Made by a program: the position numbers and the translations under genes. A DNA stretch of 64,000 nt from Synechococcus sp. AG-673-F03 (GTDB taxonomy: Bacteria > Cyanobacteriota > Cyanobacteriia > PCC-6307 > Cyanobiaceae): contig QCTJ01000003.1 in assembly GCA_003211205.1 (NCBI GenBank), forward strand, positions 1 to 64,000, read 5' to 3'. A model generated the notes under the pieces. It was given only the letters and a program-made list of their open reading frames with translations. It did no database searches and had not been told where the DNA came from. How positions within the stretch are numbered: position 1 is the first letter of the stretch; each line of letters begins with the position of its first letter. Below, in pieces: positions 59,298 through 64,000 of the stretch.

Positions 59298-60182
59298 TCA
59301 GGTCACCGGAGTGATGCTTGCGATCTTTCCGCCTTCTCGGTGAATCCTTTTGAATTGCTCGGAAAGCTTGTCGAACGGAACGTAGAAGACCCTGTTACTG
59401 CGGGTATAGCGAGAGATGCGCCGCAGATTGTTGGCGCTGTAGCCCGTGACTTCAACGCGGTAGGTCACGCCCTCCTCGCCGGCACCAGCACCCAGCCGGG
59501 TAGGTGCATCCTGCAAATTGGTGGAAGGGCGGAAACTCCAGCCTGTGGCCTGAGTGGATGACGGAGGAACCACGGGAAGTGGCAGGTTCTGATATGCCGC
59601 ACCTCCAAGCTTGCTGCGGTTCCCGGCCAGATCACCCTTCAGGCTGCTGCTGCTGTTCCCGCGCAACAACTGGAAGCTCCAGGTGAATTCCTGGAGAGTC
59701 GTGCAACATTCGGTTTTCCAACCGCGTTGATAGGGGACGGTCCACTCACCGAATGCATTCTGGTAATCGTCTGAATCCAGAAAACTGTCGATATCTGCTT
59801 CATATCCCTTGCTGTCGAGGCGCTCGGCATGGGTGCGCATTTCCTGGAAGTCTGCAGGAGCCCTCCCAAGAAAGTGGCGGAAGGCAAGCTCGATGTAGCG
59901 GTAGCGCGCGCAGGTGTCGAAGAAGCGTGTGCGATAGAGATCGCTTTTGGCGATGCGTCGCACCAGCTCTCGCACGCTGATCTCACCGAGCTTGAATTGC
60001 GATTCAGCAACGATTTGGCGCTCGCTTTCCATGACGTAAGCGTTGCCAAGCACCTGCTGATACACCTTGCGGATGATCTGCTCCTTCTTGGCATTGTCGT
60101 CGCCAGGGAGCAGTTCGAGGGGTGCTTCACTCTCGTCCGAGAAGCGCTCGACCCCCAAAAGCGAGGCAGGACCGAAGGGCAT
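59298..60182 (-). CDS. cpeC: CpeC phycoerythrin I linker
   Basis: A 294-residue rod linker starting MPFGPASLLGVERFS, the CpeC signature. The linker domain shows YQQVLGNAYVMESERQIVAE, VRELVRRIAKSDLYRTRFFD and YIELAFRHFLGRAPADFQ. A Ser/Pro-rich hinge leads to a C-terminal CpcD-like domain ending FKRIHREGGKIASITPVT. It joins PE-I discs, likely next to the phycocyanin disc. The ATG at 60182 is preferred over one four codons upstream. Confidence 0.9.
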   Translation of the reverse strand: MPFGPASLLGVERFSDESEAPLELLPGDDNAKKEQIIRKVYQQVLGNAYVMESERQIVAESQFKLGEISVRELVRRIAKSDLYRTRFFDTCARYRYIELAFRHFLGRAPADFQEMRTHAERLDSKGYEADIDSFLDSDDYQNAFGEWTVPYQRGWKTECCTTLQEFTWSFQLLRGNSSSSLKGDLAGNRSKLGGAAYQNLPLPVVPPSSTQATGWSFRPSTNLQDAPTRLGAGAGEEGVTYRVEVTGYSANNLRRISRYTRSNRVFYVPFDKLSEQFKRIHREGGKIASITPVT

Positions 60183-60325
60183 GAAGGTTCTCACGATATT
60201 CGCCGGACCTATCGTCAGTCAGAACAGCCGTGCGCGAGCGCCTTCTTTATAAAGCTCAATCAAGTGTGTCTAAATATTGCGTGACATGACAATTCGGTGC
60301 TCCTGGAAGGGGTCTGAAGCAGGCA

Positions 60326-61042
60326 TCAGTTTTGGTTTTCTGAATCATTTTTCGCTTTCAGCGATTCCAGACTTGTCCTTGTTGAGCTGCGTGTTAACGG
60401 GTTCCATTGATCCAGTTCAAGCGCTTCACGGTTCAACAATGCCTCCAGTTGCTGGTCAAGACCTCGGCAAAAACTGAAGTCAGCGCCCCGAATCGATTCG
60501 ACGCAGTCAAGCGCTGCAGCTTCCAGGTCTGCACCTCGGAAATCGGCCATGTCCAGCTGGCTGGTTCCAAAGCGTGTGCCTCTGCACATCGCACCTCGCA
60601 AGTTGGCGTGTCGAAGATCTGCCCCAGCCATCGCCGTGCCATCGAGAATTGCTCCGCTGAGATCGGTCCCGCTGAGATAGGCACCCATCAAGACCGCTTT
60701 GCGCAGGTCAACTCCTCTTAAATCGGCGTTATTCAGAAAGGCACCATTGAGCTTTGCTCCTGGACCAACGGCACCGCTGTTTTGATGATCGAAATCCTCG
60801 GGAAACTTGGTGCTCGAGTCGTATACCGCCAGACGTAGATCTGCGCTTTGAAGTTTGCATTGGCTTAAATCACTGCCACGCAGGTTGCAACGGCAGAGCA
60901 AGGCGCCGCTCAGATCACGTTGACCCAAATCCTGTTGGCTCCAGTCCGAACCACGAGCATCAACAGCTGCACCTTGAGCATCTTCAGGCGTTTGCGTCTC
61001 GGGGGCCGTCCAGTTGCGAAGGTCGATGAATTGAGACGTCAG
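60326..61042 (-). CDS. pentapeptide-repeat protein (CTG start proposed)
   Basis: About 238 residues. Pentapeptide repeats (A/S-D/N-L-x-x: GADLRHANLRGA, ADLRGVDLRKAVLMGAYLSG) build a right-handed beta-helix in the middle. The first canonical start (TTG at 60928) would cut into the first repeat. Upstream the frame continues (MTSQFIDLRNWTAPETQ if CTG at 61042 is used), with an AAGGAGG ribosome site 8 nt before that CTG. The gene lies between cpeC and mpeE; function is unknown. Confidence 0.7.
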   Translation of the reverse strand: MTSQFIDLRNWTAPETQTPEDAQGAAVDARGSDWSQQDLGQRDLSGALLCRCNLRGSDLSQCKLQSADLRLAVYDSSTKFPEDFDHQNSGAVGPGAKLNGAFLNNADLRGVDLRKAVLMGAYLSGTDLSGAILDGTAMAGADLRHANLRGAMCRGTRFGTSQLDMADFRGADLEAAALDCVESIRGADFSFCRGLDQQLEALLNREALELDQWNPLTRSSTRTSLESLKAKNDSENQN

Positions 61043-62537: not shown

Positions 62538-63260
62538 TTAGCGAGTGCCATACATTTCTCCGGCAACAATAAGAAGAACTCTGATGATTTCAAAGGCTCC
62601 TATAGCAGCCAAACCAAGCCATGCCTTTTTAGCCCATTCAGGCGTTTTGATGTAGGCAGGGACAAGGATCTCAATTTCAATTCGGGCTTGAAGTTTCTGA
62701 TCCCATTGTCGATCTCTCCAGTCGCTTCCGTAGCGAGGATATTGCTGGTAGATCGGCATCACTCCGGTTGAGGCCCCCGGAATCACCCGCGAGCGCTGAT
62801 TTGGCACATCGTCATAGCCAAACGAATCCAGATATTCGCTGCTGTCGAGTACGGCATCAACAAAGCTGCTGAAGCCTTTCTCTGCAATCAGTATTGACCA
62901 ACTGATTCGCTCACTTTGACCATGCACTTCTCGACCGAGAACGCGTCCGACGACCTGGTCGACCAGCCTGTAATTCGTACTGCAGGCCACATAGCCTTCC
63001 TGGAAGCGTCTTGACAGCAGTAATCCGCGAATGAAGTCTCTGGTTGTGATGCTTCCGTCACGAAACTGGGATTCAAGGTTCACGTCACGATCGCATTTCA
63101 TGGCGTGAAAGAAGATCTGCCGATAGGCCTGCTCGATCTGGAAGCCCCGGTCTTCACGGCTTGGGTATGTCGCGCGATTCAGCTCAGACTTCAGGCCACC
63201 CTGGTCGCCGACACGGTTGTTCTGGCTGGTCAGCGGGTAGTCGAGCAGCTGAAGCGCCAT
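62538..63260 (-). CDS. CpcG/CpcL-type rod linker with hydrophobic C-terminus
   Basis: A 240-residue rod-core linker. MALQLLDYPLTSQNNRV is the CpcG-type start, and the pfam00427 domain follows (YRQIFFHAMKCDRDVNLESQ, FIRGLLLSRRF, VVGRVLGREVHGQSERISW, SSEYLDSFGYDDVPNQR). The C-terminal ~28 residues (AWLGLAAIGAFEIIRVLLIV) are hydrophobic, as in CpcL (CpcG2), which anchors core-less rods near PSI. Charged residues inside the helix leave some doubt about true insertion. Confidence 0.82.
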   Translation of the reverse strand: MALQLLDYPLTSQNNRVGDQGGLKSELNRATYPSREDRGFQIEQAYRQIFFHAMKCDRDVNLESQFRDGSITTRDFIRGLLLSRRFQEGYVACSTNYRLVDQVVGRVLGREVHGQSERISWSILIAEKGFSSFVDAVLDSSEYLDSFGYDDVPNQRSRVIPGASTGVMPIYQQYPRYGSDWRDRQWDQKLQARIEIEILVPAYIKTPEWAKKAWLGLAAIGAFEIIRVLLIVAGEMYGTR

Positions 63261-63286: not shown

Positions 63287-64000
63287 TTATTTTATCTCTG
63301 CTTCACTGCTTCCCTGCCGAGACCCGTCGTGTCTCTTCATCTCCTTGCGAATCATGTTGCCGAGGTGAGATAACGCATCACTCAGTGTTTTGGCATCCAC
63401 TGCCGCTCCCAGTTTGCTGTAGCTGTCCACTGAGTGCAGGCGCAGGCGATTCAGGGCCAGAAGTAATCCAGGTACTGGTACATCGAGTAGTGCATAAAGC
63501 TCTGCCAGGCATTGCATGCCGTCGCTGTCCGTGACGTCGCTTTTGCCTAAGGCGGTGCCGTAGATGCTGACGCGCAGAAAATGAAAGCAGTCGCGCCAGC
63601 AGGCGTCGGCCCGATCCTGCGGGTACAACTTGCCGCCTGGTTGCACCAGCTGCGGCTGCTCACTCAGAAGATCCGCACGCGCCTGGTCAACAAGATCCGA
63701 AACCTGTCGTTGAAGTGCCGTCAGTGGAGCGGCTTCAAGACCTGACCAGTCACAACACTCTTGAATCTCTTCATCGCTGAGTAAGCGTTTGCTCTGATCG
63801 GCCTCACGAATCAGATCACGCAGGTTCTCTGGAAGGCTGGGATCTCCACTGAGTCCACACACCTTCGACTCCCGTGCGAGTTGTTTGATGCGTTCTGCTG
63901 AAGCGGAGCTCACGGATGAACGGCCTTGTTTCTCGAAGTCCTGGGAAGAATCGGGCACGCGGTCAGCCAGCCGTGGCGTTCCAGATAGAACGCCCACGCA
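63287..64000 (-). CDS. phycobiliprotein-like protein, 5' end at window edge
   Basis: At least 236 residues, possibly continuing beyond the window. The C-terminal half resembles a phycobiliprotein globin: PQLVQPGGKLYPQDRADACW, RDCFHFLRVSIYGTALGKSD, MQCLAELYALLDVP. The Cys in DACWRD aligns with the central bilin Cys (AACLRD) of the beta subunits. The N-terminal ~100 residues are unlike standard subunits. It lies 26 nt upstream of the CpcL-type gene. No stable subunit identity can be given. Confidence 0.6.
   Translation of the reverse strand, partial: CVGVLSGTPRLADRVPDSSQDFEKQGRSSVSSASAERIKQLARESKVCGLSGDPSLPENLRDLIREADQSKRLLSDEEIQECCDWSGLEAAPLTALQRQVSDLVDQARADLLSEQPQLVQPGGKLYPQDRADACWRDCFHFLRVSIYGTALGKSDVTDSDGMQCLAELYALLDVPVPGLLLALNRLRLHSVDSYSKLGAAVDAKTLSDALSHLGNMIRKEMKRHDGSRQGSSEAEIK

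Follow-up and report, generated by a model that had tools for sequence, protein, structure and literature searches.

The phycobiliprotein-like gene at the edge of the stretch of DNA analyzed here (positions 1 to 64,000 of contig QCTJ01000003.1 of Synechococcus sp. AG-673-F03, assembly GCA_003211205.1; hereafter the window, 64,000 nucleotides long) is aplA of marine Synechococcus. Within its host family, aplA tracks phycoerythrin genes rather than CpcL, the type of rod linker encoded beside it, and its tie to phycoerythrin genes also holds outside the family, across cyanobacteria. We tentatively regard its product as a biliprotein that harvests no light itself and has an accessory part in phycoerythrin production; to this reading we give slightly less than an even chance. 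Both the gene and the order unk4-aplA-cpcGII were already described in 2007 (Six et al., 2007; PMC2246261). AplA is a named yet unexplained phycobiliprotein and not a new kind of protein; the class-wide phycoerythrin tie, the conservation of the bilin cysteine and the placement in a separate clade are added here, and an old open question is now more testable.

According to the sections of Six et al. (2007; PMC2246261) that deal with this region, an aplA orthologue lies upstream of cpcGII in all phycoerythrin-II strains, unk4 lies upstream of aplA, unk5 encodes pentapeptide repeats and strain WH7805 is without aplA. CpcGII is described there as undetected in phycobilisome fractions by mass spectrometry, yet seen earlier in WH8102. 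The same sections treat marine AplA as the orthologue of AplA from Fremyella diplosiphon, which is cited as a new class of photosensors (Montgomery et al., 2004). Passages of further papers name aplA in gene-cluster comparisons, and in the literature searched we recognized no functional study of, or bench evidence for, aplA. From marine Synechococcus AplA, a phycobiliprotein homologue in phycoerythrin-II strains with the same gene order, the gene studied here differs in nothing essential.

Gene extent, fold and lineage of AplA

The open frame at positions 63287-64000 (minus strand, 236-237 residues) stays open up to the window edge, and its first codons fall within the upstream gene unk4. The TGA stop codon of unk4 shares bases with a GTG at 63913 (GTGA); translation from this GTG would yield a protein of 208 aa, which is the modal length among 85 database relatives listed (24/85). 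Consequently, we place aplA at 63287-63913 with GTG 63913 as its likely start, so that the longer frame would represent aplA plus the upstream frame. If this start is correct, aplA probably lies entirely within the window. The original prediction had called for reading the gene past the window edge; the contig does continue there, but aplA is probably complete inside the window and it is unk4 that extends beyond. The unusual length claimed for the protein would disappear with the shorter form as well. The phycobiliprotein domain PF00502 was matched with an E-value of 5.2e-28 and 98.4 bits (curated cut-off 22.2), covering residues 63-197 of the 237-residue frame and profile positions 2-139 of 155. 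In the 208-aa form this corresponds to residues 34-168 (positions 63410-63814, minus strand), and the N-terminal part of about 100 residues said to be unlike any rod or core subunit therefore shrinks to an extension of only 33 residues. Among the 11 single-domain PF00502 matches of its own genome AplA is the weakest; two more matches both lie within one long protein.

The structure model is confident and has the globin fold of phycobiliproteins, a test that had been set beforehand, with an N-terminal helix of its own. Whole-chain Foldseek fits were loose (rmsd about 8) and came to 2.0-3.9 on second look. The bilin cysteine, as had been proposed, is present in the motif ACWRD (Cys105 in the numbering of the 208-aa form, encoded at 63599-63601, minus strand). 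It is retained in 82/83 fetched aplA genes, and since these were obtained as whole-profile matches, this is a fair count. Loss of the cysteine from orthologues had been named beforehand, like the lack of a globin fold, as a result that would refute the prediction, and it is not what was observed. The motif ACW[RT]D occurs in 85/85 listed database relatives and the ACW.D columns are invariant across 48 aligned AplA rows, where both counts lean on searches whose terms lay close to the motif itself. In addition, the Cys/Arg/Asp bilin set (CxRD) is conserved in the AplA alignment. AplA would carry one bilin, on Cys105.

Phylogenetically, all 48 AplA-type rows fall on one side of a branch of length 1.41 (support 100/100) against 38 canonical rows, whose subunit names were assigned from sequence features and gene order. 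AplA stands outside both the alpha and beta clades of rod and core subunits. ApcD (allophycocyanin B, the core terminal emitter) is its closest subunit in the same genome (34.6% identity) and shares the fold and the CxRD motif. However, ApcD and ApcA rows each form their own clade, with neither of which AplA merges: it does not group with ApcD and differs from it in a Trp after the Cys and in altered neighboring positions. Filamentous relatives lie inside the AplA clade, for example a protein of Tolypothrix tenuis PCC 7101 (34.0% identity to the AplA studied here); F. diplosiphon AplA is known here via citations. Among the best 80 of 192 matches, named AplA loci include Synechococcus, Cyanobium, Crocosphaera, Nostoc, Calothrix and Leptolyngbya. 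When this genome is compared with strain RCC307, AplA is 50.5% identical, in contrast to 73.2-98.8% for nine phycobiliprotein subunits; CpeC, the CpcL-type linker and Unk4 reach 84.2, 59.7 and 41.7%, respectively. By these identities, AplA changes fast, unlike antenna subunits. The bilin-binding globins termed BBAG resemble AplA as phycobiliprotein relatives outside light harvesting, some with CXRD. However, the passages describing them place their genes beside pre-PcyA, V4R and iron-sulfur genes and not beside phycoerythrin genes, and by this description they are set apart from AplA (PMC10151467).

Co-occurrence of aplA with phycoerythrin genes

The host family comprised 121 genomes, 88 with and 33 without a phycobiliprotein match. 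Genes were counted as aplA at E-values up to 1.1e-38 (next match 6.6e-22) and as cpeC up to 2.8e-103 (next match 1.3e-76), which gave 48 genomes for each. Both genes were found together in 46 of the 88 genomes, aplA alone in two, cpeC alone in two and neither in 38. In the two genomes with aplA but without cpeC (G118 and G064), the contig stops beside unk5, the expected neighbor of cpeC. Of the two with cpeC but without aplA, G051 retains unk4 and cpcL, and G052 retains unk4 and unk5. By comparison, CpcL-type matches reaching the profile end were present in at least 86 of the 88 phycobilisome genomes; the 40 genomes without aplA contribute at least 38 of these. The figures are lower bounds among the matches listed and are based on the profile end being reached, not on hydropathy of each match. 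None of the 33 family genomes without a phycobiliprotein match, which we take to be Prochlorococcus-like, contains aplA, and on this count we rejected a photoreceptor that is kept without phycobilisomes.

For the class we sampled 146 genomes. A cut at E up to 2.6e-41 gave 41 genomes with aplA; 48 were listed at E up to 1e-28, from which seven weaker candidates were dropped. In G162 and G192 the fetched genes proved to be ApcD-like, and G126, G149, G183 and G202 (of the same family as these two) and G220 were left out as well. A CpeB cut at E 2.5e-58, placed between two identity groups, also gave 41 genomes, and 35 of the 146 carry both genes. Among the 130 class genomes outside the host family, 30 have aplA and a CpeB-type gene, six aplA only, two CpeB only and 92 neither. 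Two of the six (G185 and G198) look like assembly gaps, because phycoerythrin-type genes flank their aplA, while G133, G151, G195 and G226 show no sign of such a gap. The aplA copies of G151 and G133 (loci L151 and L152) have the motif SCWRD and an adjoining CpeT-like gene. Conversely, four phycobilisome-poor genomes of the host family (G006, G015, G022 and G032) possess a CpeB-type gene without aplA. Since the CpcL profile also matches CpcG, CpcL was judged at class level from hydropathy-checked neighbors only. At E 1e-45, five aplA genomes (G135, G153, G165, G186 and G195) gave no CpcG/CpcL-type match.

Gene neighborhoods of aplA

In the window the gene order is unk4-aplA-cpcGII, and 26 nt separate the stop codon of aplA from the ATG of cpcGII (62538-63260, minus strand). 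The CpcL-type linker predicted at this distance is borne out: the cpcGII product combines PF00427 with a C-terminal hydrophobic helix, a predicted membrane helix at residues 215-233 (62562-62618, minus strand) with a hydropathy peak of 2.25 over 19 residues. It resembles a CpcL-type rod linker in both respects and is thus assigned to that type by sequence features; its attachment to photosystem I (PSI) is putative. Further along the minus strand lie a pentapeptide-repeat gene in place of unk5 (60326-60928) and a phycoerythrin linker in place of cpeC (59298-60194), which contains PF00427 and a CpcD domain and was used as phycoerythrin marker. Of unk4 the last 91 bases fall within the window (63910-64000, minus strand), and the full gene (L009:3910-4356) encodes 148 aa; unk4 and unk5 are named after Six et al. 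(2007; PMC2246261). The model of Unk4 is confident and alpha/beta (pLDDT 88.6), and the protein gave no Pfam or NCBIfam family and no PDB match by Foldseek. This small protein is conserved among phycoerythrin strains, and its fold is possibly an unlisted one. In a Synechococcus MAG, unk4 and aplA share a single open frame of 405 codons (L028:7377-8591), so that the two genes are either truly fused there or were joined by faulty assembly.

Of the 47 family loci, 37 have unk4 directly beside aplA and 38 contain unk5. A CpcL gene confirmed by hydropathy was located in the 4 kb fetched around aplA at 29 loci, at 26 of them no more than 700 bp away. Five freshwater-type loci (L186-L190) show the order cpcBA-cpcL-unk4-aplA-unk5, and in seven genomes of one genus (g5) aplA is found near cpeBA, with no CpcL within the stretch. 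Outside the family, up to 8 kb were fetched on each side, and peb, cpeBA, cpeC and cpeR served as strict phycoerythrin markers. Such markers accompany aplA in 22 of 36 class loci and in 25 of 45 named loci outside picocyanobacteria, numbers which are lower bounds since many stretches stop at contig ends (8/36 and 20/45 are shorter than 15 kb). CpcL is found in 3/36 and 4/45 of them. If cpeF- or cpeY-like HEAT proteins are admitted as markers too, the counts rise to 23/36 and 31/45. For example, locus L130 carries consecutively, on both strands, pebB, pebA, a CpeS-like gene, unk5, a HEAT protein, aplA, cpeC, cpeS, cpeT and cpeR. On a Crocosphaera contig (L087), two peb genes and cpcL are followed after 38 nt by aplA on the same strand. 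This pair is independent of the marine one and reversed in order. In Leptolyngbya (L067), cpcL and aplA are divergent with 323 bp between them.

Possible roles of AplA

The original prediction had suggested a joint role of both proteins in PSI-associated rods. The proximity of the genes stands, given the 29 of 47 family loci and the Crocosphaera pair; the joint role is not supported, since CpcL-type linkers are so frequent without aplA, since aplA and cpeC go together in 46 of the 50 family genomes having either, and since phycoerythrin genes accompany aplA outside the family far more often than CpcL does. Instead, we favor the accessory role in phycoerythrin production. This reading is based on the domain and fold, the retained Cys/Arg/Asp set, the clade of its own, the phycoerythrin co-occurrence and loci and the fast change. 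A CpeS-type lyase from the same gene region may attach the bilin to Cys105, and AplA would have no place as a subunit in the antenna lattice. It might hold or report the supply of bilin or subunits during phycoerythrin pigmentation and assembly, and CpcL would adjoin it through a shared rod gene region and not through one complex. Several observations speak against such an accessory role. The co-occurrence may be just that of one gene block that is co-inherited, two phycoerythrin genomes (G051 and G052) and the four phycobilisome-poor CpeB-type genomes lack aplA, four CpeB-less genomes have it, and 14 of the 36 class loci show no strict phycoerythrin marker in the fetched stretch. Furthermore, the sections of Six et al. 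(2007; PMC2246261) on aplA label it a photosensor, following earlier work.

Such a light sensor, in which the bilin reports color or intensity to some partner as cited for F. diplosiphon, ranks second, and we consider it possible though rather unlikely. The stand-alone gene, the fast change and the position outside the rod and core clades fit a sensor, as does that cited passage. However, the profile search revealed no output domain in AplA, and one would not necessarily expect a general light sensor to be missing, as aplA is, from every one of the 33 family genomes that gave no phycobiliprotein match. Some filamentous copies repeatedly have a histidine-kinase gene in their vicinity, yet none is listed near picocyanobacterial ones. 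The 2004 paper on the F. diplosiphon protein reportedly, by its title, assigns it no role in light harvesting. In third place, a role for AplA in CpcL rods feeding photosystem I, be it as terminal emitter, as dock or as assembly factor, appears improbable. The gene positions in the window, in the 26 family loci with cpcL within 700 bp, in Crocosphaera and in Leptolyngbya argue for it, as does the similarity to ApcD, and the independent Crocosphaera pairing in particular keeps the idea alive. Against it count the linkers of genomes without aplA, the retention of unk4 and cpcL in G051, the five aplA genomes without CpcG/CpcL-type match and the tree, in which AplA and ApcD part. Moreover, in the passages seen on Synechocystis CpcL rods the red emitter is a phycocyanin bilin and no AplA-like subunit is mentioned (PMC10322944), so that an extra emitter would generally be unneeded. 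A shade less probable still is a more specific version, in which CpcL of phycoerythrin-rich cyanobacteria has AplA as its pigment-bearing partner: a biliprotein close to the membrane that passes energy collected by phycoerythrin on to photosystem I, or attaches the rods to it. Marine Synechococcus would then have kept the gene pair, and a Crocosphaera would have kept it independently and with the order reversed. If true, common marine phototrophs would possess a dedicated pigment protein for their PSI antennae.

AplA could also be a low-abundance component of rods or cores whose partner is a usual alpha or beta chain. Equivalents of D13, R17, R93 and Y97, which we take to be subunit-contact residues, are retained in most or all AplA rows; the passages of Six et al. 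(2007; PMC2246261) on AplA imply that it has lost contacts of this kind. The fast change, the long separate branch, the N-terminal helix and the lack of a partner gene alongside make this pairing doubtful, slightly more so than either version of the CpcL reading. Least probable of all, and in our view very unlikely, is a bilin-free relic or purely structural protein; aplA has disappeared from two genomes with phycoerythrin and is disrupted in another, but the cysteine persists in all but one of the fetched genes and the ACW.D columns do not vary. With the phycoerythrin tie, the near-invariant cysteine and two genomes (G051 and G052) that lack only aplA, the label photosensor turns into testable choices between phycoerythrin production, sensing and PSI rods.

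Two further observations concern the surroundings of aplA outside picocyanobacteria. A HEAT-repeat protein with weak similarity to NblB (L064:6228-6890 and relatives) lies close to aplA in 30 of the 45 loci, mostly on the opposite strand, and might be a lyase or chaperone for AplA. In Calothrix sp. NIES-3974 (L070), a group of ApcE-, ApcB- and ApcD-like genes, taken for a far-red light cluster, is located within about 20 kb of aplA.
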